DNA from: Comamonadaceae bacterium
GTDB lineage: Bacteria; Pseudomonadota; Gammaproteobacteria; Burkholderiales; Burkholderiaceae_C
Length of the DNA stretch: 33,102 bases
Reading direction: 5' to 3'
NCBI GenBank assembly: GCA_947448885.1
Contig: CANFPJ010000018.1
Span: forward strand, 1-33,102
Shown here: piece after piece, positions 12,509 to 31,850 of the stretch
How positions within the stretch are numbered: the stretch's first letter is position 1
How the letters are laid out: each line of letters begins with the position of its first letter
The notes under the pieces: generated by a model
Databases searched by the model: none
What the model saw: the letters and a program-made list of their open reading frames with translations, nothing else
Told to the model about the DNA's origin: nothing
Made by a program: the position numbers and the translations under genes

Positions 12509-13442
12509 GCGCAAGATCCTTATGATCCAAGGAATGTACCAAGCCCAGAAACCATCCCGCTCCTCGTTTATCCCCATCCGCGGCCTGCCATATCACTTGC
12601 GCGAATGGGGCCAGCGCCAAGCCGGCGAAACACCCCTGGTGCTTTTGCACGGCTGGATGGATGTGTCGGCATCGTTTCAGTTTGTGGTCGACGCCTTGGC
12701 AGCAAATCGCTGGATCGTGGCACCCGATTGGCGTGGTTATGGCCTGAGCGACCCGGGTGCGATCGACAACTTTTGGTTCCCGGACTACCTGGCCGACCTG
12801 GACGCCTTGCTCGACCACCTGTGCCCTGGGCAAAACATCGATTTGGTGGGCCACAGCATGGGCGGGCATGTGTCCATGCTGTACAGCGGCGTTCGACCCG
12901 ATCGCATCCGCCGTTTGGTCAACCTGGAAGGGTTTGGCATGGCGGCCACCGTTCCTGCCCAAGCGCCGGGGCGTTATGCCCAGTGGTTGGACCAACTGCG
13001 CCAGTTGCGGTCGGGCGAGATGGCCCTGCGCCCCTATGCGGATCAGAACGGCGTGGCCGAGCGTTTGATGAAAAACAACCCCCGTTTGTCTGCCGACAAA
13101 GCCCAATGGCTGGCGCCACACTGGGCCGCGCAGCAAGCCGATGGGCAATGGATCATCCGCGGCCACCCAGCGCACAAAGTGGTCAACGCCCAGTTGTACC
13201 AAGTGGAAGAAACCAAAGCCGTTTACCAACGCATCAGTGCCCCCACCTTGGTGGTGCATGCCAGCGACGACAGCTTGCAAACCTGGTGGAAGGGCAAATA
13301 TGGCCGCGAAGAGTTTCACCAACGGGTGAGCGTGGTTCCCCAATTGCAGCACGTCACCTTGCCAGATACCGGGCACATGCTGCACCACGACCAACCCCAG
13401 GCGCTGGCAGACATGATCGAAGCCTTTTTGGCCAGCCCATGA
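12507..13442 (+). CDS. Alpha/beta hydrolase
   Basis: A roughly 311-aa serine hydrolase of the alpha/beta fold. The oxyanion region LLHGWMDVSASF, the nucleophile elbow GHSMGGH, the acid HASDDSLQ and the catalytic histidine LPDTGHMLHHDQP appear in the canonical order. The cap region between the nucleophile and acid is moderate in size. Substrate unknown; it could be an esterase or thioesterase, and its position beside an acyl-CoA synthetase hints at acyl metabolism. Start: ATG 12507 has AAGAG six bases upstream, but ATG 12522 and 12534 are closer to the conserved RGLPYHLREWG and cannot be excluded. Its TGA overlaps the ATG of the next gene (ATGA), a sign of translational coupling. Confidence 0.88.
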   Translation: MRKILMIQGMYQAQKPSRSSFIPIRGLPYHLREWGQRQAGETPLVLLHGWMDVSASFQFVVDALAANRWIVAPDWRGYGLSDPGAIDNFWFPDYLADLDALLDHLCPGQNIDLVGHSMGGHVSMLYSGVRPDRIRRLVNLEGFGMAATVPAQAPGRYAQWLDQLRQLRSGEMALRPYADQNGVAERLMKNNPRLSADKAQWLAPHWAAQQADGQWIIRGHPAHKVVNAQLYQVEETKAVYQRISAPTLVVHASDDSLQTWWKGKYGREEFHQRVSVVPQLQHVTLPDTGHMLHHDQPQALADMIEAFLASP

Positions 13443-14680
13443 GCGCCTGTGATGTGGCCATCGTGGGCGCTGGCGCGGCAGGCTTGTTTTGCGCAGGCAT
13501 TGCGGCCCAGCAAGGTTTGTCGGTGGTGCTGATCGACCACCACCCCAAATTGGCCGAAAAAATCCGCATCTCTGGCGGCGGGCGCAGCAATTTCACCAAC
13601 AAAGACATCGATGCCCAAGCCCCGCACAAGCACTTTTTGGGCGAGAACCCCTTGTTCGCCCGGAGCGCCTTGTCGCGCTACACCGCGCACGACTTCATCG
13701 CCCTGGTGCAAAGCCACGGCATGGCCTTCCATGAAAAACACAAAGGCCAGTTGTTTTGCGACCGCTCATCGCAAGACCTGATCGACCTGCTGTGGCAAGA
13801 ATGCCAACGCGGTGCCCAAGGCGGCAGCGTCGCCTTGTGGCAACCCTGTGGGGTGAAAGCCGTGCGCCACCACCCCGGCCAAAGCCACGCCTACGCGTTG
13901 GACACCGATCGCGGTGAATTGCGTGCTCAGGCCCTGGTGGTGGCCACGGGTGGGCTGTCCATCCCCCAAATTGGCGCCTCAGACTTCGGTTACCGCTTGG
14001 CGGCTCAGTTCAATTTACCCCTGGTGCCCACCCGGCCTGGCCTGGTACCGCTGACCTTTGGCGGGGACGATGGCGCCATATGCGCCCAAATGGCGGGTGC
14101 ATCCCTGCCCGTACACATCTCGACCGGTACCGGCAAAGCCCAGACGGGTTTTGACGAAGACCTGCTGTTCACCCACCGCGGTCTGTCGGGTCCCGCGGTT
14201 TTGCAAATTTCAAGCTTTTGGCAGATGGGCTCGCCCATCGAAGTCAACCTCTTGCCGCACCTCAGCCTGCCCCAAACCTTGGGCCAGGCCAAACAAACCT
14301 CGCGCAAAAGCATTGCCAACGAACTGGCCCAATGGCTGCCCACCCGGCTTGCCAATGCCTGGGTGGCGCGCGACCCCCTCTGGCAGCGCCCCATCAACCA
14401 AGCCAGCGACCGCGCCCTGGAGGGCTTGGCCCAAGCCCTGACGAACTGGGCCTTGCAACCCACCGGGACCGAAGGCTACAAAAAGGCTGAGGTCACGGTG
14501 GGTGGCGTGTCCACCCAAGCTTTGTCGCAAAAGACCATGGAATCGACCCAAAAAGGCCTGTATTTCATTGGCGAGGTGGTCGACATCACCGGTTGGCTGG
14601 GGGGCTACAACTTCCAATGGGCCTGGTCCAGCGCCCATGCCTGCGCCACGGCTTTGGGGGCGGCGCTCAAACCGCTATAA
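13439..14680 (+). CDS. HI0933-like FAD-dependent flavoprotein (NAD(P)/FAD oxidoreductase)
   Basis: A 413-aa flavoprotein of the HI0933/YhiN family, whose physiological reaction is largely uncharacterised. The N-terminal dinucleotide fold is VAIVGAGAAGLFCAG. The family signature is KIRISGGGRSNFTN, followed by LFCDRSSQDLIDLL, then ALVVATGGLSIPQIGASDFGYRLA and LLFTHRGLSGPAVLQIS. The C-terminal KAEVTVGGVS and GLYFIGEVVDITGWLGGYNFQWAWSSA close the FAD site. The true start is MSACDVAIVG, with its ATG overlapping the hydrolase stop. The frame stays open far upstream, but that extension is antisense to the synthetase and not real. The stop codon lies within the -10 box of the rpsU promoter. Confidence 0.92.
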   Translation: MSACDVAIVGAGAAGLFCAGIAAQQGLSVVLIDHHPKLAEKIRISGGGRSNFTNKDIDAQAPHKHFLGENPLFARSALSRYTAHDFIALVQSHGMAFHEKHKGQLFCDRSSQDLIDLLWQECQRGAQGGSVALWQPCGVKAVRHHPGQSHAYALDTDRGELRAQALVVATGGLSIPQIGASDFGYRLAAQFNLPLVPTRPGLVPLTFGGDDGAICAQMAGASLPVHISTGTGKAQTGFDEDLLFTHRGLSGPAVLQISSFWQMGSPIEVNLLPHLSLPQTLGQAKQTSRKSIANELAQWLPTRLANAWVARDPLWQRPINQASDRALEGLAQALTNWALQPTGTEGYKKAEVTVGGVSTQALSQKTMESTQKGLYFIGEVVDITGWLGGYNFQWAWSSAHACATALGAALKPL

Positions 14681-15095: not shown

Positions 15096-15542
15096 ATGAG
15101 CCTCAAAGAACGCATCACCGATGACATGAAAACCGCCATGCGGGCCAAAGACAGCGAACGCCTGGGAACCATCCGCCTTTTGCAGTCGGCCATGAAGCAA
15201 AAAGAGGTGGATGAACGCATTGAGTTGGACGATGTTGCCATCGTGGCCATCGTCGACAAAATGATCAAGCAGCGCAAAGACTCCATCGCCGCCTTTGAGC
15301 AAGCCGCCCGCCAAGACCTGGTGGACAAAGAAAAAACCGAATTGGCGGTGCTCAGCGCCTATTTGCCCGAACGCCTGTCGGCCCAAGAGCTGACCGATGC
15401 TGTTCAAGCCATCGTGAAAGAGTTGGGCGCCAGTGGCCCCGGTGACATGGGCAAAGTGATGGGTGCGGTCAAAACCCGTTTGGCCGGCAAGGCCGACATG
15501 GGTGCTGTGTCGGCAGCCGTCAAAGCCGCCCTGGCCCCTTAA
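15096..15542 (+). CDS. GatB/YqeY domain-containing protein
   Basis: A 148-aa protein made of a single YqeY domain, the same fold as the tRNA-binding tail of the GatB amidotransferase subunit. Its function is not firmly known; a role in tRNA-linked amidation has been proposed from homology. Visible family features are MSLKERITDDMKTAMRAKDSERLGTIRLLQSAMKQ in the helical N-terminal half, then EQAARQDLVDKEKTELAVLSAYLP and GPGDMGKVMGAVKTRLAGKADMG in the C-terminal half. CAGGAG lies five bases before the ATG. A longer frame upstream overlaps rpsU out of frame and is not used. The gene converges on the iron alcohol dehydrogenase, and the two TAA stops share one TTAA. Confidence 0.93.
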   Translation: MSLKERITDDMKTAMRAKDSERLGTIRLLQSAMKQKEVDERIELDDVAIVAIVDKMIKQRKDSIAAFEQAARQDLVDKEKTELAVLSAYLPERLSAQELTDAVQAIVKELGASGPGDMGKVMGAVKTRLAGKADMGAVSAAVKAALAP

Positions 15543-16639
15543 GCCGCTGCGGCGGCCTGAATGAAGTTGCGCCCTCTGGGGCCTTGCAAGGCCCGCTCGA
15601 CCATGTCGCGGGCTTGTTCGGGGCTGACCCCATGGTCCTGGAAGTTGGAGGACACGCCCACTCGGGCCAAGAACCGATCCAAAGCGCTGGCCGGGTCAGT
15701 CTCTTGCGCGCCAAACACCTGCTGCAAGACAGCATCGCGATCGGGTCTCACCCCCCACGCCAAGCGCCACACCATGGGCAAGGTGAAGGAACAAGCCAAG
15801 CCATGTGACAGACCATGTTTCAGGGTCATTTCATAAGAAATGTTGTGGGCCAATGCGGTTTTGGTGTTGGAAAAAGCCAAGCCCGCCAACAAACTGGCGC
15901 GGCTGGCCAAGGTTCTCAGCGCCACGCTGCTGGGGTTGTCGAGCAGTTCGGGCAAATGGCGCACCACGGTCTGCGCCGCTTGCAGGGCCAAGCCATCCGA
16001 CACCGGATTGGCGTTCACATTCCAGATGGCTTCCAAAGCGTGCGACAAGGCATCCAAATTGCTGTCGCGCGTCACCGTGTGCGGCAAAGACAAGGTCAGG
16101 GCCGGGTCCACCAAGGCCGCCTCGGGCCAGGTTTGTGCCAGATGCAAGGAGTACTTTTGATGCTGGGCGGAGGTGCGGTCCCACAAAGTGGCCCAGGGGG
16201 TGACCTCACTGCCGGTGCCGGCCGTGGTGGGCACCGCGATCATGGGCAGCGCCCGGGTGATGGCGGGCGCTTTCCCTTGGGCCAAGGCAGCATGGATTTC
16301 CGCAAAATCACCGCTGGCCACGCCCGGCAAAAACATTTTGGCGCTGTCGAGCACCGATCCACCGCCCACGGCCACCACCACGCAATCGGCGTATTGCTGC
16401 CAAAACCTTGTGTAATGACCGCTCACCCAACTCAGCTCTGGGTTGGGCTGCACATCGTCAATCACCCCCGCCAGATGAGACCCCAACAGTGCCTCGATTT
16501 GGGCCAACAAGCCCGTTTCACGGGCTTGGGGAAAAGTCACCACCACGGCGCGCCGCCCTTTGAGCAATGGGGGCAGTTGGTTCAAAACGCCCCAACCAAA
16601 GGTCACGGCCACAGGGTTGTGAAAATGCCAAGTGCTCAA
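15539..16639 (-). CDS. Phosphonate-associated iron-containing alcohol dehydrogenase
   Basis: A 366-aa group III (iron-dependent) alcohol dehydrogenase. GGGSVLDSAK (residues 92-101) binds the dinucleotide, and PTTAGTGSEVTPWA follows. The metal ligands by family pattern are D196, H200, H265 and H279. It is the last gene of the leftward phosphonate cluster, directly after phnE. From memory, a family of phosphonate-associated Fe-ADHs is defined (TIGR03405), and relatives in phosphonate biosynthesis reduce phosphonoacetaldehyde to 2-hydroxyethylphosphonate. Phosphonoacetaldehyde or 2-hydroxyethylphosphonate is therefore the likely substrate, by inference. The start is a TTG: GAGGT overlapping the phnE stop is well placed for it, and no ATG lies near. 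Its TAA overlaps the yqeY TAA in a convergent TTAA. Confidence 0.88.
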   Translation of the reverse strand: MSTWHFHNPVAVTFGWGVLNQLPPLLKGRRAVVVTFPQARETGLLAQIEALLGSHLAGVIDDVQPNPELSWVSGHYTRFWQQYADCVVVAVGGGSVLDSAKMFLPGVASGDFAEIHAALAQGKAPAITRALPMIAVPTTAGTGSEVTPWATLWDRTSAQHQKYSLHLAQTWPEAALVDPALTLSLPHTVTRDSNLDALSHALEAIWNVNANPVSDGLALQAAQTVVRHLPELLDNPSSVALRTLASRASLLAGLAFSNTKTALAHNISYEMTLKHGLSHGLACSFTLPMVWRLAWGVRPDRDAVLQQVFGAQETDPASALDRFLARVGVSSNFQDHGVSPEQARDMVERALQGPRGRNFIQAAAAA

Positions 16640-16648
16640 TCTTGGACC

Positions 16649-17452
16649 TCAAATGAATTTTTTGCGAATCACCGAAGAAATCAAGTCAATGCTGGTGACA
16701 AACAAAATGATGATCAACAACACCGCGCTGGTTTGCGCGTACTGAAAACCCCGAATGACCTCATACAACACCACCCCAATACCGCCCGCGCCGACCATGC
16801 CCACCACAGAGGCAGAGCGCACATTGGACTCAAAGCGGTACAGTGAATAAGAAATCCACAGCGGCATGACCTGGGGCAAGACACCGTAAACAATTTCTTC
16901 GATGGCCAAGGCCCCCGTCGCACGCACGCCCTCCACCGGTCGGGGATCAATCGCCTCCACGGCTTCTGAAAACAACTTGGCCAAGGTGCCCGTGGTGTGA
17001 ATCCACAAGGCCAACACCCCAGCGAATGGCCCCAAACCCACGGCCACAATGAACAACATGGCAAACACCATTTCATTGATGGCCCGGCAAGCGTCCATCA
17101 ACCGGCGCACCGGTTGATACACCCAGGCGGGAACGATGTTGGAGGAACTCAGCAATCCAAACGGCACCGCACAAACGATGGCCAATACCGTACCCCATAC
17201 GGCGATGTGCAAGGTGGTGATCATTTCCTTGAGATAAATTTCCCAATCGCGAAAGTCGGGTGGGAAAAACTCTTTGGCGTACTTGACCATGTTGTCCGAA
17301 TCGCGGAACAGGTCCATCGGTCGGATTTCTGCACCCTGCCAGGCCCAACCCAAAAAGATCAAAAACGCCGCCCAGGCAAACAGCTGCAGCAGTGACCGCC
17401 CTCCCTGAGGGTCGGCTGGCATGGCGAGGGTGTGGGCGGGCGTCATGCTCAC
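16649..17452 (-). CDS. phnE: Phosphonate ABC transporter permease PhnE
   Basis: A 267-aa inner-membrane permease of a phosphonate ABC importer, acting as partner of PhnC and PhnD. After a first hydrophobic segment ([15 protein letters not shown]) comes a periplasmic part. The BinderProtein-dependent transport core follows, with about five membrane helices: [46 protein letters not shown], and a C-terminal [21 protein letters not shown]. The cytoplasmic EAA loop is [20 protein letters not shown], which contacts the ATPase. The first codon is GTG, overlapping the phnD stop (GTGA); an ATG two codons later is possible. The tight overlap with phnD and the short gap to the alcohol dehydrogenase make one transcript likely. 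Confidence 0.93.
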
Positions 17453-18420
17453 TTGGCCAGCTTGGACAGGTCAGCAAGCTTTTTGTCGATCTCAGCCATC
17501 TTGGCGGTGCGCTCTGCGGGGTTCATTTTTTCATCGCTTTCAAATTTGATGCGATCTTTGTACAACTCCAATTGGCGAATGGGGACCAATTGCAAATCGG
17601 TGGAGTCGCGGAAACCGGCAATTTGCTGCATGTTCTTCAAAATTTCTTTTTCACGCGCATCTTTGCCGTAGCCCAGGACAAACTTTTTGATCGCATCCTT
17701 GGTTTCATTGGGCATGTCTTTTTTCCACACCAAGGGGTCGCGCGGAATCAGCGGCGAGGTCCACAAAATCTTCACTTCAGCATGCTTGACCGGGTCGCGC
17801 ACTTTCAGCTTGTCCAACTCCTCGCTGTTGTTGGTGGCCACGTCGACTTGTTTGTTCAATACGGCCAATAAGTTGGTACCGTGGTTGGCGCTGCGGGTCA
17901 CGCGGAACACGTTCTTGGGGTCCAGCTTTCTTTGGCTGAACACATAGTAGGTGGGCACCAAGGTACCAGAGGTTGACTGGGGATCGCCCAGGCCAAAGGA
18001 CAAGGTCTTGCCGTTGGCAATCATGTCGTCAATCGATTTCAAGGGGCTGTCGCGATGGGTGATCACATAAGAGTAATAGCCTGGGCGCCCATCCAAATCG
18101 ATGAATTGCGCAAACACCTCGCCACCGGCGCGGTCCACCGCCTCAATGGCCGACTTGTTGCCGTGCCAAGCCAAATGAACCTTGCCAAAACGCATGCCCT
18201 CAATGATGCCGGTGTAGTCGGTGGCAAAAAAACCATTGATCTTCATGCCGGTGGCTTTGGCCATGTCGTCCATGAAGGGTTGCCACATCGATTTGAGGGC
18301 GGTGGATGAATCGGTCGAAATGATGCCGAAATTGATTTCTTTCAACGCCTGGGCTTGGGCCGAGGCCATGAAACACAGTGAAGCTGCGGCGGTGAGGAAC
18401 ACTTTGCGCGAGATTTTCAT
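17449..18420 (-). CDS. phnD: Phosphonate ABC transporter substrate-binding protein PhnD
   Basis: A 323-aa periplasmic binding protein for phosphonates. A signal peptide ([23 protein letters not shown]) precedes the mature part starting near [10 protein letters not shown]. The sequence is strikingly like E. coli PhnD, which binds 2-aminoethylphosphonate tightly: [50 protein letters not shown] and [10 protein letters not shown] all fit. The acidic residues that hold the amine in E. coli PhnD (in NNTEN and GDP contexts) are retained here. One visible change is H in LAWHGNKSA, where I recall Y in E. coli. The start MKISRK is chosen because CAGGAG is nine bases upstream; the longer frame back to 18465 lacks a signal sequence. 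It follows phnC by 45 bases. Confidence 0.95.
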
Positions 18421-18465
18421 GATGAATAACTCCTGGAGATCAAGGGTTTGGGAAAGAAAAGTCAA

Positions 18466-19335
18466 TCAAATCGGTTCAAGTTCTAGGGTTTCGGTGCCAT
18501 CCAGCAACTCGTCGACACTGGCGCCATACAAACTGCGCAGGTGCTGGGCTGTGAGGTCAGCGGAGGGGCCGTCATAAATGACCTCACCCATGCGCAGCGC
18601 AATGGTGCGCGGGCAATAGCGCCGGGCAAATTGAACTTGGTGCAAAGAAACCAACACCGTGATGCCGTGTTCGCGGTTGATTTTGGCCAGAATGTCCATC
18701 ACCGTTCTGGCGCTCTCGGGGTCCAACGAGGCAATCGGTTCGTCGGCCAATATGATCTTGGCGTGTTGCACCATGCAGCGCGCAATGGCCACCCGCTGCT
18801 GCTGCCCGCCCGACAAGGTGCTGGCACGTTGATAGGCCAAGCCTTCAATGCCAATCATCCTCAAGGCTTCATAAGCCTCTTGCTTTTCTGCCCAGGTGAA
18901 CTGGCCCAGCAAACTGCGCAACAACGGCACCCGGGGCAACATGCCGGTCATCACATTGGTCAACACATTCATGCGACCCACCAGATTGAACTGTTGAAAA
19001 ATAAAGCCGATATCAGACCTCATTTTTCGAATTTGGCGGTGCACTTGGCCATGGCTTTGCACCGTGTGCGGGCCCACACGAATGGCCCCACTGCCCGCAT
19101 CGGCGGCCAAGAATCCTGACACATGGCGCAAGAGCGTGGATTTTCCGGAGCCAGACGCACCAATCAAGGCCACCATTTCACCGGGCGCCACCGTGAATGA
19201 GGTGTTTTTCAAAGCCACCGCCCCTTGCCCAAAGGATTTGGTGATGTTTTGAATGTCCAAACCGGTTGGGCTGGCGTGCGCTGTGGTGTTCATGGAGGTG
19301 GTGAACTGTTGGTCGCCATGATCGGACTTCTTCAT
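18466..19335 (-). CDS. phnC: Phosphonate ABC transporter ATP-binding protein PhnC
   Basis: The cytoplasmic ATPase that powers phosphonate import with PhnDE. Walker A is GASGSGKST, the Q-loop is FIFQQFNLV, the signature is LSGGQQQRVAIAR, Walker B is IILADEPIASLDPE, and the switch histidine is in VSLHQVQ. The whole resembles E. coli PhnC closely. Homology begins at LDIQNITKSFG, about 25 residues after the first ATG (19335). A second ATG at 19293 (MNTTAHAS) gives 275 aa, and neither has a clear ribosome binding site, so the start is open. Upstream, a 95-bp gap from the flavoprotein gene holds the operator-like palindrome and a possible PHO box. PhnC therefore probably begins a sub-operon phnCDE-adh that can be controlled separately from the genes before it. 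Confidence 0.93.
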   Translation of the reverse strand: MKKSDHGDQQFTTSMNTTAHASPTGLDIQNITKSFGQGAVALKNTSFTVAPGEMVALIGASGSGKSTLLRHVSGFLAADAGSGAIRVGPHTVQSHGQVHRQIRKMRSDIGFIFQQFNLVGRMNVLTNVMTGMLPRVPLLRSLLGQFTWAEKQEAYEALRMIGIEGLAYQRASTLSGGQQQRVAIARCMVQHAKIILADEPIASLDPESARTVMDILAKINREHGITVLVSLHQVQFARRYCPRTIALRMGEVIYDGPSADLTAQHLRSLYGASVDELLDGTETLELEPI

Positions 19336-19351
19336 GACGAATGTGTGACAA
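19334..19351 (-). promoter_or_regulatory. Possible PHO box at the start of phnC
   Basis: On the minus strand TTGTCAC and TCGTCAT are separated by four bases, the 7-4-7 layout of a PhoB box (CTGTCAT repeats); matches are about 6/7 and 5/7. It overlaps the first phnC ATG, which weakens the case unless phnC starts at 19293. Confidence 0.3.
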
Positions 19352-19358
19352 GTTGGTT

Positions 19359-19372
19359 GATTGTTGACAATT
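19359..19372. promoter_or_regulatory. Operator-like palindrome upstream of phnC
   Basis: The minus strand reads AATTGTCAACAATC, containing the perfect inverted repeat ATTGT-CA-ACAAT. The same 14 bases occur between the GntR regulator and phnW (26750-26763). The form TTGT-CA-ACAA fits the TNGT-N-ACNA type of half-sites used by GntR regulators of the FadR/FCD branch. A weak -10 (TAAATT, with TTATCC 17 bases upstream) overlaps it on the minus strand, so binding could block phnC transcription. Confidence 0.65.
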
Positions 19373-19430
19373 TACAGTTGGCGCGGCTCATGGATAACCC
19401 TTGGCAGTGACTTCGGCCATGGGCCCGAAC

Positions 19431-21848
19431 TCACAATAGAGGTGTCAAGTCATGCAGCAGCACCGGGACGGGTTCCCCCCACAACATGGCACTGGCCGCC
19501 TGATGGACCACATCGCGCGCTGCCCAGTCACCCCGCAGATAGGCCATGCCGACACACGCACCGGCCTCATGGCCCCAGCCCACAGAGGTGATTTCACCCA
19601 CGGTTTGCCCATCGATCACCAATGGCTCACCTCCCCACAGGTATGGATCGGGCTGGGTCGCCAGCACCCGAACCAGTTTCTTTTGCAAAGTCGAACCCCA
19701 TTGATCGCGCAAGGCCTGCTGCCCTTTGAAAGGTGGCGTTTTGTCCGCCGGCAAGGTGGATACCATGCGGGCCTCCATGGGCGTCTCGCCCGGCCCCAAC
19801 TCTGGCCCCCAGGCGCGCCGCGCGCGCTCCGTGCGCAGGGCATCGAGTGCGTAGTAGCCCGCATCGCGCAGGCCCAAAGCCGAGCCAGCGGTGTGCAAAG
19901 TTTGGTAAACGTGGCGGGTCATCTCGATGGGCACGTAAAGCTCAAAACCCAAGCCACCCACATAACTCATGCGCGCCACACGCACCCGCGCATGGCCGAG
20001 GTCGATCTCACGCGTGCTGCGCAGGGGCAAGGCGCGCCGAGACACATCGTCCGGGCTGACCCGGGCCATCAACTCGGGCGCCATGGGCCCCATGAGGGAC
20101 AAAACGCTGTACATGGTCGTGACGTCGGTCACGTTGACCCCACTGTGCGGCGCGATGTGGCGGCGAATCCAATCCATGTCCCGCGTGACCTGGGCTGAGC
20201 CGGTGATCAGCAAGAACATATCCGTTGCCAAGCGCAAAACGGTCAAATCACTTTCATGCCCACCCTGATCGTTCAGCATGGGCGTGTACACCATCTGTCC
20301 CACCGGCGTGTCCACATGGCGCATGCACAGGTGTTGTAACAAGGCGGGTGCATCGCGGCCTTGCACCAACAACTTGCCAAAGGATGTTTGGTCGTACAAA
20401 GCCACCGCTTCGCGGGTGGCCGCTTGTTCAGCTTGCACCCATGGCAACCAATCGGGTGTGCCCAATGTGTCGTGCGCAGCGAGGGCGTCCACAGGCTTGA
20501 AGTAATTGACCCGCTCCCAGCCATTTTTGCTGCCAAACACAGCGCCTTTGGCGGCCAAGGCGTCGTAAAGCGGTGAGGTGCGCAGGGGGCGAACAGTTTG
20601 CAACTCTTGGCGCGGCCAGCGCATGGCGTAATGCAAACCCAAGGTTTCGACCGTGCGCTCAGCCAAGGCGCGTCGGTTGCTGGTGAATGGCGCAAAGCGG
20701 CGGATATCCACGTCCCACACATCCACGCTGGGCGCACCTTGCACCATCCATTCGGCCATCAAGCGCCCGGCCCCGCCGGCATTGGCAATGCCGGCCGAAT
20801 TAAAACCAGCGCAAACAAAGTAATGGCGCAGCTCTGGGGCCTCACCCATGATGAAGTTGCCATCGGGGGTGAAGCTCTCAGGCCCATTGAGCAGCATTTT
20901 GATGTCGGCGGTTTCCAGGCAAGGTGTGCGGTGCAAAGCGCTGCGCATCAAGACTTCAAATTGATCCCAATCCTCCCCCAGCAACTGAAACTGAAAGGAG
21001 GCCGGTATCGGGTCCACCCGCCAAGGCTTGGCCACCGGCTCAAAGCCACCCATGACCAAGCCACCCACTTCTTCTTTGTAATAAATGAAGCCATCGGGGT
21101 CGCGCACCACCGGCCACATGGGATGAATACCGTCGATCTTCCCGGTCACCAAGTAAAAGTGTTCGGCCGAATACAGGGGCACATTCACGCCGGCGAGCAG
21201 GCCCAACTGGCGCGCCCACTGGCCCGCGCAATTGACCACCATGTCGCAGCCCACCACACCCGACTGGGTCTGGACGCCTCGCACCTGGCCCTGGGCTTGC
21301 AGCACCCCCGTGACTTCCACCCCTTCAAAGATCTTCACACCACGCTGGCGCGCACCTTTGGCCAAGGACATGGTCAGGTCGGCGGGGTTGGCCTTGCCGT
21401 CCCCTGGCAACCACACCGCACCGCACAGGTCGTCGGTTCGCAACAGGGGCACCCGCTGGGCCACTTCCAGCGGAGAGATGTCGTGCACCTCCACACCAAA
21501 ACTGCTGGCCAAGGCCATTTGGCGCCGCAGCAATTGCATGCGCTCTGGGGTGCGCGCCACCGTGACGCTGCCACACGGGCGCCACCCAGTGGCCAACCCG
21601 GTTTCTTGCTCCAAACGGGCATAGAGTTCGATGCCATAGGTGCTCATGCGCGTCATGCTGCGATTGGCGCGCATTTGCCCCACCAGGCCAGCGGCATGCC
21701 AGGTGGTGCCACTGGTGAGTTGGCCTTGCTCCAACAGCACCACATCGGTCCAGCCCATCAAAGCCAGGTGATAGGCCACCGAACAACCCACAATGCCCCC
21801 GCCCACCACCACCACACGGGCATGCCGGGGCATAGCGATGTCACTCAT
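19431..21848 (-). CDS. Two-domain FAD/folate flavoprotein of the dimethylglycine/sarcosine dehydrogenase family, in a phosphonate cluster
   Basis: An 805-aa protein with a D-amino-acid-oxidase-type FAD domain (about residues 1-380), a linker, and a GcvT-like folate-binding domain (about 425-800). The dinucleotide motif is VVVGGGIVG (residues 13-21). H51 in SGTTWHAAG is the histidine that carries covalent FAD in dimethylglycine and sarcosine dehydrogenases. D534 in MLNDQGGHESDL matches the folate-domain aspartate. Such enzymes oxidatively remove N-methyl groups and pass the one-carbon unit to tetrahydrofolate. Here the gene sits between a permease and phnC inside AEP catabolism genes, so an N-methylated aminophosphonate is a plausible but unproven substrate; sarcosine, dimethylglycine or a betaine derivative remain possible. 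The start MSDIAMPRHAR has a full AAGGAGG five bases upstream, the strongest ribosome binding site in the cluster. Confidence 0.88.
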   Translation of the reverse strand: MSDIAMPRHARVVVVGGGIVGCSVAYHLALMGWTDVVLLEQGQLTSGTTWHAAGLVGQMRANRSMTRMSTYGIELYARLEQETGLATGWRPCGSVTVARTPERMQLLRRQMALASSFGVEVHDISPLEVAQRVPLLRTDDLCGAVWLPGDGKANPADLTMSLAKGARQRGVKIFEGVEVTGVLQAQGQVRGVQTQSGVVGCDMVVNCAGQWARQLGLLAGVNVPLYSAEHFYLVTGKIDGIHPMWPVVRDPDGFIYYKEEVGGLVMGGFEPVAKPWRVDPIPASFQFQLLGEDWDQFEVLMRSALHRTPCLETADIKMLLNGPESFTPDGNFIMGEAPELRHYFVCAGFNSAGIANAGGAGRLMAEWMVQGAPSVDVWDVDIRRFAPFTSNRRALAERTVETLGLHYAMRWPRQELQTVRPLRTSPLYDALAAKGAVFGSKNGWERVNYFKPVDALAAHDTLGTPDWLPWVQAEQAATREAVALYDQTSFGKLLVQGRDAPALLQHLCMRHVDTPVGQMVYTPMLNDQGGHESDLTVLRLATDMFLLITGSAQVTRDMDWIRRHIAPHSGVNVTDVTTMYSVLSLMGPMAPELMARVSPDDVSRRALPLRSTREIDLGHARVRVARMSYVGGLGFELYVPIEMTRHVYQTLHTAGSALGLRDAGYYALDALRTERARRAWGPELGPGETPMEARMVSTLPADKTPPFKGQQALRDQWGSTLQKKLVRVLATQPDPYLWGGEPLVIDGQTVGEITSVGWGHEAGACVGMAYLRGDWAARDVVHQAASAMLWGEPVPVLLHDLTPLL

Positions 21849-21878
21849 CTCAACCTCCTTGATGGCCATGTCCCAGCA

Positions 21879-22721
21879 TCATCCCAAACGCAAGGACATG
21901 ACACCCGCCACCATCGCGCCGGTGCCCAAAAAGCGCAGGCGCGTCCATGGCTCCTTGAGCAACCAAGCGCCCAAAACGGCGGCAAACAACACCGAGGTTT
22001 CCCGCAATGCCGCGACCATGGCCACCGGCGCCAAGGTCATGGCCCACAGTGCAATGGCATAAGACCCCAGCGAAGCCACGGCACCACCCACGGCCACCGG
22101 CCAGCGCTGGCGCACATAGGGCCAAACCTGTCCTTTGCGGTGCAGGAAAACCATCAATGCAAACGGCCAACCATCCAACGCAAACAACAAGGCCACATAC
22201 TGCACCACATTGCCAGACAGGCGTGCACCCTGAGCGTCCACCACGGTGTAGAGGGCTATCAACACCGCATTGCTGAGGGCAAACAAAACGGCTTTGCGGT
22301 TTTGCACCAAGGCCATGCCAGCACCCAGCAACAAGACCCCGCCACAAATCAAAGCCACGCCCAACCAACCCCAGGGGGTCAAGGCTTCCCCCAGCACGGC
22401 CATGGACGCGAGGGCCACCAACAGGGGTGCGGTGCCGCGCATCAAGGGGTAGGTCAAGCCCAACTCGCCGTGCTGGTAAGCGCCGGCCAATGCAAAGTAA
22501 TAACCCACGTGGATGACCATCGAAGCCAGAATAAATGGCCACGCCTGCATGGGGGGTGGCCCGACATAAAGGCAAACAGGGAGTGCCAGAACGGAACACA
22601 GCAAATGGATCAGTGCGGTGTCCAAGGTCTTGTCTTGGCTAGATTTCACCAGCGCATTCCAACTGGCATGCAACAGCGCCCCCAACAGCACAGCGAGCAG
22701 CACTGGCCAGGTGATGGCCAT
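21879..22721 (-). CDS. EamA/DMT family transporter
   Basis: A 280-aa inner-membrane protein with about ten hydrophobic helices arranged as two EamA repeats, the drug/metabolite transporter architecture. Examples are LLAVLLGALLHASWNALVK at the N-terminus, the segment ending the first repeat near LGVALICGGVLLLGAGMAL, and LRETSVLFAAVLGAWLLKEPW near the end of the second repeat. The ligand cannot be predicted; members move amino acids, nucleosides or other small metabolites in or out. The ATG follows the HD-gene stop after a single base, and the gene ends 30 bases before the flavoprotein start, so it belongs to the phosphonate operon. It may import an additional phosphonate or export a toxic product, which is inference only. 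Confidence 0.85.
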   Translation of the reverse strand: MAITWPVLLAVLLGALLHASWNALVKSSQDKTLDTALIHLLCSVLALPVCLYVGPPPMQAWPFILASMVIHVGYYFALAGAYQHGELGLTYPLMRGTAPLLVALASMAVLGEALTPWGWLGVALICGGVLLLGAGMALVQNRKAVLFALSNAVLIALYTVVDAQGARLSGNVVQYVALLFALDGWPFALMVFLHRKGQVWPYVRQRWPVAVGGAVASLGSYAIALWAMTLAPVAMVAALRETSVLFAAVLGAWLLKEPWTRLRFLGTGAMVAGVMSLRLG

Positions 22722-22722
22722 C

Positions 22723-23274
22723 TCAGCTGCTCAGGGCACAGCGACGAACGTGTTGAAGAAAGTGCTGCAGGTCTGGGGTGGGTCGGCCCGCTTGCTTGGC
22801 CTGATCGTCCCAGCGGCGCAAGCGCACCGCATCTTGCGCACCGGGTTGGGCGATGAAGGCCTGCGCTTGCTCGGGCGTGTAAATGCCACCTTGCAATTGC
22901 AAGCTGCGCTTGGAATCAGCAGAGAGGGCATCGTGATAGCGGGTATCCACCGCGCACAAATAACGCTTGGCATCGACGTGCAACTGCACGGCGTTGATCA
23001 CGGATTCAGAAAACAAGCCCCGAAAAAACGGCACGACGCGGTTTTGGTGCACGTCGTCAATGCCATCGGCACTGGGGGTGCCCGCGATGTCGTGCAACAA
23101 ATGACCCAAATCATGGAGCAAGGCAGCGGCCACCAATTCGTCGCCAGCACCCTCTTGTTCGGCCAAATCAGCCGATTGCAAAGCATGCGCCAACATGGTG
23201 ACCGGTTCACCGGCGTATTGCTCATGCCCGCGCTGGGTATAAATGTGCTCAATGTCGTCGATGGTGAGGGCCAT
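22723..23274 (-). CDS. PhnZ-like HD-domain protein (phosphonate-associated HDIG family)
   Basis: A 183-aa HD-domain protein. Its residues line up with those of PhnZ, the mixed-valent di-iron oxygenase that cleaves the C-P bond of 1-hydroxy-2-aminoethylphosphonate. The metal ligands are H30, H54 and D55 (LLHDLGH), H76, H99 and D156/D157 (RRWDDQAK). The substrate-loop pair Y20 and E23 (QYAGEPVT) corresponds to Y24 and E27 of PhnZ as I recall them. No 2-oxoglutarate oxygenase that would supply the hydroxylated substrate is in the window. A phosphonate-operon HDIG family is known (TIGR03276, from memory). It probably oxidises a 1-hydroxyphosphonate and releases phosphate, but this needs testing. 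The start MALTIDDIEH lies ten bases after the phnY stop; longer frames upstream are out of phase with family length. Confidence 0.87.
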   Translation of the reverse strand: MALTIDDIEHIYTQRGHEQYAGEPVTMLAHALQSADLAEQEGAGDELVAAALLHDLGHLLHDIAGTPSADGIDDVHQNRVVPFFRGLFSESVINAVQLHVDAKRYLCAVDTRYHDALSADSKRSLQLQGGIYTPEQAQAFIAQPGAQDAVRLRRWDDQAKQAGRPTPDLQHFLQHVRRCALSS

Positions 23275-23284
23275 GCGTGTCCAA

Positions 23285-24742
23285 TCAAATCCAGGGGATG
23301 GAATAGGTTTTGAGGTTGGTGAAGCTCTTGATGGCTTCTTGCACCCCTTCTTTGTAGCCCAGGCCCGAGTCCTTGATGCCGCCGAAGGGGGTGAGCTCAA
23401 GCCGGTAGCCAGGCACCTCGCGCACATTGACCGTGCCCATGTGCAGTTCATTGACAAAGCGAACGATGTCATCCATGCGGTTGGTGCAAACACCGCTGGA
23501 CAGCCCGTAGGCGGTGCCATTGGCGATGCGAATCGCCTCGTCGATATCGGCAAATCGAATGATGGGCGATACCGGGCCAAAGGTCTCCTCGCGCACCAAG
23601 GTCATTTCTGGACGGACCCGGTCCAGGACGGTGGGCGCGTACAAAGCCCCTTGGCGCTGGTTGCCCAAAAGCAGGCGTGCGCCCTGGCTCACGGCCTCCA
23701 GGACACGCGATTCAAACAATGTGGCCGCGGCTTCGTCAATCACCGTGCCCATGAGGTTGGCTTCATCACGGGGGTCGCCATAGGTCCAAGCCCGGGATTT
23801 CGCCAACACCATTTCCGTGAAAGCGTCGGCCACTTTGTCGTGCACCAACATGCGCTTGACCGCGGTGCAGCGCTGGCCCGAGTTTTTGTACGAACCTTGC
23901 ACCGCCAAGGTGGAGGCTTCATCCAAATCGGCGTCGTCCATGACGATCAGCGGGTCATTGCCGCCCAACTCCAACACCACACGGCGGTAGCCCGCTTTGC
24001 TGGCAATGTATTTGCCAATGGCCACGCCGCCGGTAAAAGTGATCAGATCCACGGCGGGGTGGGTCAACATCTCGTCGGCAATTTCGGCCGGGTCGCCGGT
24101 GATGACTTGCAGCATCTGCGGGGGCAGGCCTGCTTGGTACAGCAAATCAGCGAAATAAATGGCCGAAAAAGGCACCTTCTCGGAGGGTTTGAGCACCATG
24201 CGGTTGTTGGTGGCGATGCTGGGAATGACTTTGTGCGCCACCTGGTTCATCGGGTGGTTGAACGGGGTGATGGCCGTGATCACACCCAGCAAGGGTGAGC
24301 GTTGGGTGTAAACGCGCCGTTGTTTGCCATGGTGGGTCAGGTCGCAGCTGAAAATTTGGCCGTCGTCTTTGAGTACCTCTTGGGCGCCAAACAGCAACAC
24401 ATCGCTGACCCGCCCGGCTTCATACAAAGCATCCTTGATCGCCAAGCCCGATTCGGCGCTGATCAAGTGCGCGATCTCTTGCAGGTGGACCCGGGCCAGT
24501 TCTGCGGTTTTGTTCATGATGGCCGCCCGTTCATAGCGGGTCAGCTGGGGTTGGTATGCGCGTGCCCAGTCAAAAGCTGCGCGCACCTCTTCCAGCGTGG
24601 CTTTGGGCACTGTGCCCAGGACTGTTTGGGTGAAGGGGTTGAAGACATCAATGTGGCGCTCGCGCCCTGCCCCCCATTTGCGCCCAAGGCTGCGCATGGC
24701 GTCAAGCTGGCGCTCTTTGATCAAACCTGGAATATCCATCAT
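23285..24742 (-). CDS. phnY: Phosphonoacetaldehyde dehydrogenase PhnY (ALDH family)
   Basis: A 485-aa NAD(P)-dependent aldehyde dehydrogenase that should oxidise phosphonoacetaldehyde to phosphonoacetate in the cytoplasm. The catalytic cysteine is C292 in NSGQRCTAVKR, with an arginine directly before it as in the Sinorhizobium PhnY (R290-C291 by recollection). The general base is E258 in LELGGND, and the oxyanion asparagine is N162 in TPFNHP. The ending TPFGGIKDSGLGYKEGVQEAIKSF is typical of the family. The start MMDIPGLIKE is supported by CAGGAA about seven bases upstream. The gene sits between phnA and the HD protein. With PhnW producing the aldehyde and PhnA consuming the acid, the assignment is strong. 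The name PhnY is also used for an unrelated 2-oxoglutarate oxygenase; this is not that protein. Confidence 0.93.
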   Translation of the reverse strand: MMDIPGLIKERQLDAMRSLGRKWGAGRERHIDVFNPFTQTVLGTVPKATLEEVRAAFDWARAYQPQLTRYERAAIMNKTAELARVHLQEIAHLISAESGLAIKDALYEAGRVSDVLLFGAQEVLKDDGQIFSCDLTHHGKQRRVYTQRSPLLGVITAITPFNHPMNQVAHKVIPSIATNNRMVLKPSEKVPFSAIYFADLLYQAGLPPQMLQVITGDPAEIADEMLTHPAVDLITFTGGVAIGKYIASKAGYRRVVLELGGNDPLIVMDDADLDEASTLAVQGSYKNSGQRCTAVKRMLVHDKVADAFTEMVLAKSRAWTYGDPRDEANLMGTVIDEAAATLFESRVLEAVSQGARLLLGNQRQGALYAPTVLDRVRPEMTLVREETFGPVSPIIRFADIDEAIRIANGTAYGLSSGVCTNRMDDIVRFVNELHMGTVNVREVPGYRLELTPFGGIKDSGLGYKEGVQEAIKSFTNLKTYSIPWI

Positions 24743-24779
24743 CGCTGTTTCCTGATTGAATGGGATGCCCAAAAGGGAT

Positions 24780-26724
<1,945 letters not shown>

Positions 26725-26726
26725 GT

Positions 26727-26747
26727 GTGAATTGGAGCACAATTCAC
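26727..26747. promoter_or_regulatory. Perfect 8-bp inverted repeat at the regulator start
   Basis: GTGAATTG and CAATTCAC flank five bases, directly before the regulator ATG and three bases from the main operator palindrome. It may be a second binding site or a leader hairpin that tunes regulator synthesis. It is not repeated near phnC. Confidence 0.5.
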
Positions 26748-26749
26748 CC

Positions 26750-26763
26750 AATTGTCAACAATC
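26750..26763. promoter_or_regulatory. Operator-like palindrome between regulator and phnW
   Basis: AATTGTCAACAATC contains the perfect repeat ATTGT-CA-ACAAT and is identical over 14 bases to the site upstream of phnC. On the minus strand it contains a consensus TTGACA, a likely -35 for the regulator gene. Binding here could control both the leftward operon and phnW. Confidence 0.7.
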
Positions 26764-26861
26764 TACAACTGAAAATTTGACATCCATGGATACCTATCGG
26801 CATCTGGCGCTGACCCACTGATTTTTATGAACAATGAGCCACCTTTTTGGATGAAGTTCCC

Positions 26862-27986
26862 ATGACAGCACACCGCGAAGCCATCTTGCTCACCCCCGGC
26901 CCCCTGACCACCAGTTTGCGCACCAAGCTGGCCATGCTCAAAGATTGGGGTTCCTGGGACAGCGACTTCATCGCCATCACCGCCCGGGTGCGCCAAAGCC
27001 TGCTGAGCATCGTGCATGGACACGACAGCCATGTGGTGGTGCCCCTGCAAGGCAGTGGCACCTTCAGCGTCGAAGCGGCGGTGGCCACGGTGGTTCCACC
27101 GGGTGGCCACGTGCTGGTGCTCGACAACGGTGCTTATTGCAAGCGGGCGGCCAAACTCACCCACCTGATGGGGCGGCGCACCACCGTCGTCCCTTTTGCC
27201 GAAGATGCGGCGATCAGTCCCGAGGTGCTGCAATCGCACTTGCTGGCCGACACAAGCATCACCCATGTGGTCATGATCCATTGCGAAACGGGGGCCGGCG
27301 TCCTCAACCCTTTGCAGGCGGTGGCCGATGTGTGCCAAGCCCATGGCAAAGGCTTGATCGTCGACGCCATGAGCTCATTCGCCGCCCTGGAAATCGACGC
27401 CCGAAAAGTGCATTTTGATGCGCTGATTGCGGCCAGTGGCAAATGCCTAGAGGGTGTGCCCGGCATGGGTTTTGTATTCATCCGCAAAGCCATCCTGCCC
27501 CAATGCGAAGGCAACAACAGCTCACTGGCCATGGACCTGCATGACCAATACATCTACATGGAAAAGACCGGCCAATGGCGCTTCACCCCACCCACGCATG
27601 TGTTGGTGGCCTTGAACGAAGCCATTGCCCAGTTTGAGGAAGAAGGCGGACAAACTGCTCGCTTGAAGCGCTACCAAAGCAATTGCCGCACCTTGGTGGG
27701 CGGCATGGCCGAACTGGGTTTCAAACCTTTTTTGGACCCGGCCATCCAGGCGCCCATCATCGTCACCTTCCATGCGCCGGCCGACCCCAGGTACCAGTTC
27801 AAAACCTTTTATGACATCGCCAAAAAGAACGGTTTTATTCTGTATCCCGGCAAACTGACCCAAGTGGAAACCTTCCGGGTGGGTTGCATTGGGGCCATTG
27901 GGCCGGTGGAGATGGCGCAGGCGGTTCATGCCGTTGCCTTGACTTTGAAAGAGGTGGGCATTGCCAGCGCTTCACCTGCGCTGTGA
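26862..27986 (+). CDS. phnW: 2-Aminoethylphosphonate--pyruvate transaminase PhnW
   Basis: A 374-aa PLP enzyme of fold type I (class V) that transfers the amino group of AEP to pyruvate, giving phosphonoacetaldehyde and alanine: the entry step of AEP catabolism. The PLP lysine is K194 in [12 protein letters not shown], the same number as in Salmonella PhnW. D168 (IVDAMSSF) pairs with the PLP nitrogen, and the N-terminal [10 protein letters not shown] and C-terminal [18 protein letters not shown] are family hallmarks. The start [14 protein letters not shown] is supported by a GAAG five bases upstream; a TTG five codons earlier is unlikely. It is divergent from the regulator across a 137-bp control region and converges on the TRAP genes. 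No phnX (phosphonatase) is present; the product is handled by phnY and phnA. Confidence 0.96.
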
Positions 27987-28046: not shown

Positions 28047-29822
28047 TCAGGGCATGCTCCCCAGGTAAGTTGGCAAGCCCAGGGCCACCAGGGGCAGCCA
28101 TGAAATGACCATGGTTCCGATAAAAATCGCCAGCAATGCGGGCAACACGGACTTGGCCACCGTTCGAATCGGCTTTTTAAAGATGGCCGATGCAAAGAAT
28201 ATGTTCATGCCCGCAGGCGGGCATAAAAATCCCATCTCCATATTGGCCAAGAAAATGATGCCGAAGTGGACCGGGTCAATGCCATAGCTCATGGCCAGGG
28301 GCAACAACAAGGGCACCAACACCACGATGGCCGCATAAATTTCCATCAGGGCGCCCGCCACAAACAAAAATACATTCAATGCCAGCAAGAACAGGTATTT
28401 GTTTTGGGTCAGGCCTTGCACCGCATCGATCACCAAATCGGGAATGCCAGCATCCACCAGGTAATTGGTGAGCCCCAAAGCCATGCCCAAAATCAACATC
28501 ACACCCCCAATGATTTGCGCGCATTGGGACAAGCACTCGCCCAACGAACGCCAGCTCAACTCCCGGTGCGCCCATCCCAAGGTCAAGATGGCATAGGCCG
28601 CCGTTAATGCCGCGCTTTCAGTGGGCGTTGCCAAGCCACTGACCAGTGATGCGATGGCCACCACGGGGGCCAAGATTTCCCATTTGGCGCGCCAGATGGC
28701 ACTGCGCACATCGACGGTTTGAGCCACTGGCGGCGGTCCATGGCGAGTGGCCCGCAAATAGCCGCCAAACACCAACAGGCAGATGATCATCACCAGGGCG
28801 GGCACCAAACCCGCCAGAAACATGGTGTTGATGGGCACGCGGGCAATGATGGCGTACATGATCAAGGGCACCGATGGGGCCAGCAAAACGCCCAAGGCGC
28901 TGGCACTGGTGACCAAGCTGATGTCCCGCTGCTCTGGGTAGCCGGCATGTCGCAGCAAGGGCAGCAACAAGCCCCCCAAAGCCAAAATGGTCACACCACT
29001 GCCACCGGTAAAGGCGGTGAAAAATGAGCACAGCACCGTGGCTGCCAGCAACGTGCCAACCAGCCCATGGCCAAAAATCGCCAGAAACAAAACCCCCAAA
29101 CGCTGAACCGCCCCCGTTTTGGCAAACAACAAGCCAGCCAGGGTGAACAAGGGCAAAGCCGGTAAGGACGGGTTGACGGTCATTTGGTATTGCGACAAGG
29201 CAATGGAGGCCAAAGGCAAACCCTCGCTCCAAAACAATGCCAAAGCCAAACCACCCAGCACTGCAAAGATGGGGGCGCCGCAGAGCAAAGCGGCAACCAA
29301 CACAACCATGCATGGCCAGAGCACAAGGACCTCGCCATCCCACCAAGCGGCCAAACCCAAGCCTGCCAGCGGCCAAAGGCATGACCGCGCCCGATCGGCC
29401 CAAGTCGTGCCAGCGCCCTGCCCCGAGAGTTTGATGCCCAAAATCGCGAAACCCAAGGGCATGACGAGTTGCAGCCACCACACAGGCAGGCCATAAGCCA
29501 ATTCTTTGGGTGACTGCATTTCAGATTTGACAAACTGCCAACTGGCCCAGGTCAAACAGCCACAAATCGCGCCGGCGGCCACACGCGCAAACCCTTCGCC
29601 GCCTTCGAACAAGCGGCCCAAACTGGTCAAATGCCCGTGGCGTTGGGCGGCCACCGCACCCCACATGGCCATCACCAAGCCCATGTGCTGCACAAACAAA
29701 GGGGCATTTTCGAAGCCACGCCCTGTGATCGGTCGCCCCACCATCTCGATGAGTGGGATCAGCACCATCAAAGCCAGCGCCACAGCAGCCAGCGCTTCAT
29801 CCACACGGCCCCCATAACGCAT
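28047..29822 (-). CDS. TRAP transporter fused small/large permease (DctQ-DctM)
   Basis: A 591-aa inner-membrane protein that joins the small (Q) and large (M) permease subunits of a TRAP uptake system. The first 165 residues form four helices of the DctQ type (IPLIEMVGRPITGRGFENAPLFVQHMGLVMAMWG, AAQRHGHLTS, WWLQLVMPLGFAILGIKL). The rest is a DctM with about a dozen helices and typical motifs: GAPIFAVLGGLAL, PALPLFTLAGLLFAKTG, FFTAFTGGSGVTILALGGLLLP, PSVPLIMYAI, TPTESAALTAAYAI and MGFLCPPAGMNIFFAS. It uses an ion gradient, not ATP, with ligand supplied by the binding protein encoded just upstream. Its ATG overlaps the stop of that gene by one base (TGATG); a GTG one codon earlier is possible. 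Ligand unknown. Confidence 0.92.
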   Translation of the reverse strand: MRYGGRVDEALAAVALALMVLIPLIEMVGRPITGRGFENAPLFVQHMGLVMAMWGAVAAQRHGHLTSLGRLFEGGEGFARVAAGAICGCLTWASWQFVKSEMQSPKELAYGLPVWWLQLVMPLGFAILGIKLSGQGAGTTWADRARSCLWPLAGLGLAAWWDGEVLVLWPCMVVLVAALLCGAPIFAVLGGLALALFWSEGLPLASIALSQYQMTVNPSLPALPLFTLAGLLFAKTGAVQRLGVLFLAIFGHGLVGTLLAATVLCSFFTAFTGGSGVTILALGGLLLPLLRHAGYPEQRDISLVTSASALGVLLAPSVPLIMYAIIARVPINTMFLAGLVPALVMIICLLVFGGYLRATRHGPPPVAQTVDVRSAIWRAKWEILAPVVAIASLVSGLATPTESAALTAAYAILTLGWAHRELSWRSLGECLSQCAQIIGGVMLILGMALGLTNYLVDAGIPDLVIDAVQGLTQNKYLFLLALNVFLFVAGALMEIYAAIVVLVPLLLPLAMSYGIDPVHFGIIFLANMEMGFLCPPAGMNIFFASAIFKKPIRTVAKSVLPALLAIFIGTMVISWLPLVALGLPTYLGSMP

Positions 29823-30835: not shown

Positions 30836-30844
30836 AGGTCTCTT

Positions 30845-31815: not shown

Positions 31816-31850
31816 AAACAATAACGATGATGCTTGCAAAGGAGTTTTCC

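Follow-up and report, generated by a model that had tools for sequence, protein, structure and literature searches.

According to PMC10590968, N-methyl-2-aminoethylphosphonate (N-methyl-AEP) is frequent in nature and is not usable by PhnW, the transaminase acting on 2-aminoethylphosphonate (AEP). The same source presents enzymes that deal with this compound, as PbfC and PbfD are shown to deaminate N-methyl-AEP and PbfB is indicated to act likewise. In nicotine degraders, N-methylaminobutyrate can be both demethylated, by Mabo, and deaminated to methylamine, by Mao, within one organism (PMC6122326, PMC6214936); the product of Mabo is given as methylene-tetrahydrofolate in PMC6214936 and as hydrogen peroxide in PMC6122326. 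For human dimethylglycine dehydrogenase (DMGDH), PMC5082570 describes a covalent histidine link to flavin adenine dinucleotide (FAD), a His/Tyr dyad and tetrahydrofolate (THF) as the methyl acceptor. Here, we analyze a contig of a Comamonadaceae bacterium (CANFPJ010000018.1, positions 1 to 33,102; the whole stretch of 33,102 nucleotides is referred to as the window) in which a PhnW-PhnY-PhnA cluster for AEP degradation includes the gene of a two-domain FAD/folate flavoprotein. By analogy with the characterized relatives, we consider it fairly probable that the PhnWYA pathway is extended here by a folate-coupled N-demethylase, which would convert N-methyl-AEP to AEP for PhnW.

The flavoprotein has 812 residues and combines the DAO, FAO_M, GCV_T and GCV_T_C domains in one chain, all four above the Pfam gathering scores, a fusion of an FAD and a folate domain that is of the DMGDH type. 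It resembles DMGDH and DMGO (4pab, 5l46, 1pj5) in domain order and over the full length, scoring 435 bits with DMGDH; residues 16-781 align to rat DMGDH (E 5e-129) and residues 17-787 to Arthrobacter DMGO (E 5e-94). With the register of the catalytic residues set by alignments to 1pj5 and 3gsi, the features shared with DMGDH and DMGO, that is His58 at the FAD-linking position and the dyad of His237 and Tyr263 (DMGO His225 and Tyr259), are found in 42 of the 42 rows of the alignment of relatives. Asp541 is kept in 41 of the 42 rows, with Glu in L072, and aligns with DMGO Asp552, which we take to be the folate-side catalytic acid. This Asp is thus common to the flavoprotein and DMGO, whereas the same place is occupied by Glu in rat and human DMGDH and by Ala in 3gsi. 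An AlphaFold2 model reached a mean pLDDT of 85.5 and a pTM of 0.85 (29-row alignment). Among the matches listed (25 of 35 families), the protein scored above no NCBIfam cut-off.

The gene recurs beside phosphonate genes. A scan of genome contigs with the flavoprotein yielded 71 relatives, 68 of them of Burkholderiales type, and phnA or phnY lies upstream in 41 of the 47 Burkholderiales-type loci whose sequence extends 4.5 kb or more upstream of the flavoprotein, so that the clustering with phn genes exceeds chance. The preliminary description of this DNA had treated the flavoprotein, an HD-domain oxygenase (HD), an EamA permease and an iron-containing alcohol dehydrogenase (PsrA) as one set of accessory genes, a grouping that does not hold: in the 41 linked loci (tblastn, at least 40% identity) eamA is present in 39 and HD in 35, but PsrA at the same identity, the window aside, only in L024 and L059 among the 71 loci. 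The regulator gene phnR accompanies 37 of the 41. L024 keeps the complete arrangement of the window, including phnCDE, psrA and genes of a TRAP transporter, and L059 carries phnCDE-like genes and psrA. PhnA was also searched in the genomes of 18 loci, namely 15 of Burkholderiales type, tested because phnA was unseen on the locus, and three others; the genomes of L041 and L059 were left out of this search. A match was present in 13 of the 15 (11 above cut-off and two cut-short matches, in G133 and G134), and no PhnA above cut-off was found for the three relatives of other types (L071-L073, 33-49% identical). As for the six loci with a long upstream stretch that carries neither phnA nor phnY, PhnA is encoded elsewhere in the genome in five (L036, L050, L056, L057, L066), and the genome of the sixth, L019, gave no PhnA match. 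The preliminary description had named a patternless absence of the four genes from related clusters as a ground for rejecting its proposal; looked for in the case of the flavoprotein, such absence did not refute it.

Co-occurrence across 120 genomes of the family points in the same direction. Eighteen genomes gave a match to the flavoprotein with E no higher than 1e-60; once two of them, with identities of 31% and 43%, were excluded, 16 carriers of an orthologue remained. PhnA is above cut-off in 27 of the 120 genomes, comprising 16 of 16 carriers and 11 of the 104 others (Fisher p 4e-13, genomes taken as independent), and in 14 carriers the two genes lie on one contig at most 8 kb apart, while they are on different contigs in G110 and G118. 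Within the 27 PhnA genomes, PhnW is above cut-off in 15 of the 16 carriers and in 4 of the 11 others (p 0.002), an enrichment that is expected if the product of the flavoprotein is AEP. The 19 genomes with both PhnW and PhnA include 15 with the flavoprotein, two with an enzyme of family TIGR03329 ("putative aminophosphonate oxidoreductase"), none with both and two with neither. In particular, the TIGR03329 enzyme lies within the cluster in G018 and G074, and neither enzyme was found in the stretches read from G005 and G109. TIGR03329 is above cut-off in 2 of the 27 PhnA genomes and in 0 of the 16 carriers; weaker matches (E 1e-30) occur in 15 of the 27, carriers included, and as the best of them reaches 217 bits where the cut-off is 633, they are taken as putative paralogues. 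No relative of the TIGR03329 protein of G018 (E 1e-10) was found on the 71 flavoprotein loci, many of which are short. Conversely, the phn clusters of Variovorax (L142) and Paraburkholderia (L143), picked from phnW matches on plasmids, each encode a relative 76-78% identical to that of G018 and lack a flavoprotein of the present type. The numbers behind this mutual exclusion are small.

The association extends to alphaproteobacteria. A tblastn search of plasmids with the flavoprotein returned 380 records, all below 60% identity, of which 15 were read. In seven stretches at 54-57% identity (S. meliloti, twice, Phyllobacterium, two Ensifer, Aminobacter and a record labelled Roseateles sp. XES5), phnW, phnA and phnY are all present, about 1 to 10 kb away, and the orthologue of Sinorhizobium meliloti 1021, on pSymB, is located about 3 kb from phnW. 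Stretches from Shinella and Ensifer adhaerens also combine phnW, phnA and phnY with the flavoprotein, but they were reached via phnW matches and are not independent. No relatives of HD, EamA or PhnR (E 1e-8) were detected in the nine alphaproteobacterial-type phn stretches with the flavoprotein. None of the eight plasmid relatives with at most 48% identity has a phnW or phnA relative on its stretch, and their neighbours include purU, folD and a succinate-semialdehyde dehydrogenase gene in Arthrobacter from tobacco; electron-transfer flavoprotein (ETF) genes, purU, folD, gabT and gabD in Sphingobium; ETF, purU, folD and ETF-QO in Agrobacterium; ETF and, farther away, purU in R. leguminosarum; and sarcosine oxidase, folD and purU in Paracoccus denitrificans (46% identical), while neither folD nor purU is in the stretch of the three others. 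In a maximum-likelihood tree (midpoint root), 32 phn-type rows form a clade with support 99/97. Linkage on the locus is seen for 27 of these rows, the unlinked ones being L003, L019, L036, L050 and L066, and only the genome of L019 is without PhnA. The neighbouring group of seven comprises the folD/purU/ETF types, a second Paracoccus sequence and L071. Forty-four alignment columns are characteristic of the phn-type clade, with a residue that is fixed in its rows (31 or 32 of 32) and rare in the neighbouring group (at most 1 of 7), a pattern that shared descent alone could yield.

Two of these plasmids show further features. In Aminobacter aminovorans, a gene of the dihydrofolate-reductase family (L135:13111-13770) stands directly upstream of the phn-linked flavoprotein gene, a possible folate link. 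The plasmid labelled Roseateles (L136, NZ_CP084754.1, record UNVERIFIED_ORG) bears a cluster of the rhizobial form, and transfer or mislabelling is therefore likely.

The substrate, the C-N bond cleaved, the transfer to folate and the identity of the electron acceptor are inferred here, with N-methyl-AEP as the substrate suggested by genomic context and analogy. The FAD domain would oxidize the N-methyl C-N bond of N-methyl-AEP, and perhaps of N,N-dimethyl-AEP too; the iminium would then pass to THF in the GcvT-like domain, yielding 5,10-methylene-THF and AEP, with electrons going to ETF/quinone or to oxygen. An ETF pair is encoded on another contig of the genome of the window. The resulting AEP would be converted by PhnW to phosphonoacetaldehyde, by PhnY to phosphonoacetate and by PhnA to acetate and phosphate. 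Most weight is placed on this formation of AEP and methylene-THF because the flavoprotein has the architecture and the residues of demethylating enzymes. 

Several points speak against this proposal. The slot in an AEP cluster does not tell which bond the flavoprotein cuts, since PbfC and PbfD deaminate N-methyl-AEP from the same slot, and no folD, purU or ETF gene was seen within the cluster. Co-occurrence with PhnW is weak evidence, as plain AEP needs PhnW too, and in the carrier G112, a genome of 76% completeness, no PhnW reaches the cut-off. The Fisher values treat genomes as independent. Two of the 15 draft genomes tested, G136 (L019) and G137 (L022), gave no PhnA match. Finally, the tree has a midpoint root, and the branching order within the neighbouring group, where two long branches come together, is unsure.

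The first alternative is that the flavoprotein is itself a deaminase, which would oxidize the C2-N bond of N-methyl-AEP to give phosphonoacetaldehyde and methylamine, with the folate domain inherited and idle. It would agree with the activities reported for PbfC and PbfD, and indicated for PbfB, in PMC10590968, and with the finding that the flavoprotein fills the slot of the TIGR03329 enzymes and was not found together with them. An idle folate domain, however, is at odds with the near-complete retention of Asp541 and with the folD/purU neighbourhood of the relatives in the neighbouring group; the characterized two-domain relatives described in the sources cited above, DMGDH and Mabo, demethylate, and PhnW is present in all carriers but one. 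We regard deamination as unlikely, though more probable than the other alternatives. A second alternative places the flavoprotein downstream of HD, which would free phosphate from hydroxylated N-methylated AEPs and leave sarcosine or dimethylglycine to be demethylated. HD is nearer to TmpB (119 bits) than to PhnZ (88 bits), keeps the positions of their motif and is frequent near the flavoprotein gene in the linked loci, but the two do not go together across genomes: HD (at least 190 bits) is found in 12 of the 16 carriers and 7 of the 11 other PhnA genomes, with no association (p 0.41), is without a match in the carriers G063, G098, G101 and G110, and has no relative in the alphaproteobacterial-type stretches. 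A tie between the flavoprotein and HD is thus not supported. Nor does the cluster show a hydroxylase partner, and this order of events appears improbable. If the flavoprotein were simply a dimethylglycine or sarcosine dehydrogenase placed beside phn genes by chance, this would explain the similarity to DMGDH and the Paracoccus denitrificans relative near sarcosine oxidase, folD and purU, but such a reading is still less credible given that PhnA accompanies all carriers, that the linkage recurs in two proteobacterial classes and that, with the reservation about descent, the phn-type clade has fixed columns of its own.

The cluster itself comprises ten genes on the minus strand in the order phnR-phnA-phnY-HD-eamA-flavoprotein-phnC-phnD-phnE-psrA, from 26751 down to 15539 and all in intact frames, and the divergent phnW on the plus strand (Table 1). 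The preliminary description had found the path from PhnW through PhnY to PhnA, with the PhnCDE transporter, to be complete, and this is borne out, as all of these genes are in intact frames and above curated NCBIfam cut-offs. Its statement that the accessory genes are tightly spaced on the same strand is correct with respect to phnA, phnY and phnCDE and fails for phnW. Three of the four genes it called unassigned already have phosphonate-associated models (TIGR03276, TIGR03405 and, with a score below the cut-off, TIGR03340), and PhnR, a GntR-type regulator encoded in the cluster, is missing from its account. Finally, its suggestion that the cluster widens the substrate range is well supported for the flavoprotein, which co-occurs with PhnA and not with another aminophosphonate oxidoreductase, and is plausible for HD, whereas nothing indicates the substrate of EamA.

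Table 1. Genes of the AEP cluster, with window positions
Gene and product	Position	Strand	Evidence
phnW, AEP:pyruvate transaminase	26847..27986, likely start ATG 26862	+	TIGR02326, 485 bits (cut-off 401); Aminotran_5
phnR, GntR/FCD regulator	26008..26751, ATG 26724 possible	-	TIGR03338 (PhnR_burk), 279 (cut-off 272)
phnA, phosphonoacetate hydrolase	24780..26003	-	TIGR02335, 616 bits (cut-off 408)
phnY, phosphonoacetaldehyde dehydrogenase	23285..24772	-	TIGR03250, 838 bits (cut-off 636)
HD-domain diiron oxygenase (Phn-HD)	22723..23274, ATG start	-	TIGR03276, 231 (cut-off 215); YxxE and ligand positions aligned to TmpB/PhnZ
EamA permease, phosphonate-associated type	21879..22721	-	EamA domains; TIGR03340, 239 bits, below cut-off 288
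Two-domain FAD/folate flavoprotein, proposed N-methyl-AEP demethylase	19431..21869	-	DAO, FAO_M, GCV_T, GCV_T_C; nearest solved chains DMGDH, DMGO; conserved catalytic residues; phn-linked clade
phnC, phosphonate ABC transporter ATPase	18466..19335	-	TIGR02315, 297 bits (cut-off 266)
phnD, phosphonate-binding protein	17449..18465	-	TIGR03431, 326 bits (cut-off 261)
phnE, phosphonate ABC transporter permease	16649..17452	-	TIGR01097, 308 bits (cut-off 217)
psrA, phosphonate-associated iron-containing alcohol dehydrogenase	15539..16639	-	TIGR03405, 479 bits (cut-off 424)

The gaps between minus-strand neighbours from phnR to psrA, with mechanically called starts, are 4, 7, 16, 1, 9, 95, 0, -4 and 9 bases (10 bases for the third, between phnY and HD, with the ATG start of HD), so that one operon is likely from phnR through the flavoprotein gene and possible through psrA. 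The 285-residue frame of HD is most likely too long, with the gene at 22723-23274, as the TIGR03276 match starts only at residue 105 and an ATG is present at 23274. Counts from promoter and terminator scans did not clearly exceed the means for shuffled sequence (1 vs 3.4; 19 vs 17.7) and were given no weight. The intergenic stretch between phnR and phnW (26700-26790) contains an inverted repeat, GTGAATTG-GAGCA-CAATTCAC, that could be a candidate PhnR operator. Beyond phnW, a TRAP transporter with a TAtT T-component (28047-31735, minus strand), kept in L024, is followed by a PPK2 gene (31827-32762, plus strand), and PPK2 is also encoded near the flavoprotein in L133, L039 and L043. On the other side, an 850-residue frame (12128-14680, plus strand) has an HI0933-like match only from residue 442, and the true gene therefore probably starts near 13450. 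In 14 Burkholderiales-type loci (for example L004:6901-8556), a gene 30% identical (E 7e-72) to an annotated Ensifer Na/Pi cotransporter lies between phnY and HD, and in several alphaproteobacterial phnWAY clusters (L132, L133, L134, L135, L136) the first gene is annotated as a Na/Pi cotransporter; the product may export surplus phosphate.

HD shares with PhnZ and TmpB the YxxE loop and the six metal-ligand positions (H..HD..H..H..D) described in PMC8177086, as seen in alignments to TmpB 6npa and PhnZ 4mlm, and since these are kept, HD is likely to be active as a diiron oxygenase, with an alpha-hydroxy aminophosphonate as its substrate. It meets its own model, TIGR03276, while the TmpB model gives only 162 against a cut-off of 300. 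Probably, HD would serve a separate, optional branch that frees phosphate from such a compound. Scanning of the cluster proteins revealed no 2-oxoglutarate hydroxylase partner. Other contigs of the genome encode two TauD and three PhyH proteins; four of these five were scanned and none was above an NCBIfam cut-off, in a library that may hold no model for such a hydroxylase. The hydroxylated substrate of HD may come from outside. As for PsrA, its gene adjoins phnA in L076, L077 and L097; among the genomes of these loci, G085 and G116 are without the flavoprotein, and in G042 the flavoprotein gene stands beside the other copy of phnA, not the psrA-adjoining one. In most relatives, the place of psrA and phnCDE is taken by another ABC transporter, 50-53% identical to Ensifer genes annotated as putative 2-AEP transporter. 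The probable role of PsrA is to interconvert phosphonoacetaldehyde and 2-hydroxyethylphosphonate. PMC9381506 suggests that 2-hydroxyethylphosphonate is made by PhpC-type enzymes of AEP operons, and for PsrA the reverse direction is equally possible. A literature search found nothing that joins an iron-containing alcohol dehydrogenase with PhnW, and the name PsrA does not occur in the papers listed.

With regard to the published oxidoreductases of AEP clusters, the flavoprotein is, like PbfB, PbfC and PbfD, a recurrent FAD amine oxidoreductase, one type per cluster so far seen, but by its scores it fits none of these types. Identity with PbfC was rejected after comparison with the cluster of Azospirillum sp. 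B510, whose PbfC (L139, taken as such by its position beside phnW) has PF01266 only and is 28.5-31% identical (28.5% over the FAD half), in contrast to the flavoprotein with its folate domain. Membership in TIGR03364, the family given for PbfD1 in PMC10590968, was rejected at 74 bits against a cut-off of 285, and membership in TIGR03329, which would correspond to PbfB, was likewise rejected on scores, with no match at E 1e-30 in the genome of the window (G000). In the literature searched, AEP degradation by a DMGDH-type enzyme is not described. PMC10590968 collects 260 PF01266 sequences from AEP clusters, among which relatives of the flavoprotein may be unnamed, and the word "folate" is absent from its main text. 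It is somewhat probable, if less so than the pathway extension itself, that a fourth FAD enzyme type exists in AEP clusters, of DMGDH lineage, in Burkholderiales and beside phnWAY of S. meliloti, that demethylates N-methyl-AEP (perhaps N,N-dimethyl-AEP) and conserves the methyl carbon in the form of 5,10-methylene-THF. If so, a second natural phosphonate, N-methyl-AEP, would enter the same AEP pathway, phosphonate use would be tied to one-carbon metabolism, and neither the amine nitrogen, kept in AEP, nor the methyl carbon, kept in methylene-THF, would be lost to the bacteria. As the genetic model S. meliloti 1021 carries an orthologue, the question is directly testable.

The flavoprotein differs from DMGDH and DMGO in its location in AEP clusters and in the fixed residues of its clade. 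The reaction of Mabo offers a closer parallel to the proposed one, which would likewise concern a secondary N-methylamine with an acidic end, oxidation by FAD and transfer of the methyl group to THF. A gene on a plasmid of a tobacco-associated Arthrobacter (L144), 40% identical and with the same four Pfam domains, would be Mabo judging from its gene context; it lies outside the phn-type clade and in a nicotine/gamma-aminobutyrate context with purU and folD as neighbours, whereas the flavoprotein gene of the window belongs to a phosphonate operon and has no adjacent folD or purU. By analogy, PbfC and PbfD would match the deaminating side, that of Mao, and the flavoprotein, by architecture and residues, the demethylating side, that of Mabo. 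Demethylation, if true, would thus add another chemistry to the deamination by the published enzymes, mirroring the pair of Mabo and Mao in nicotine breakdown.

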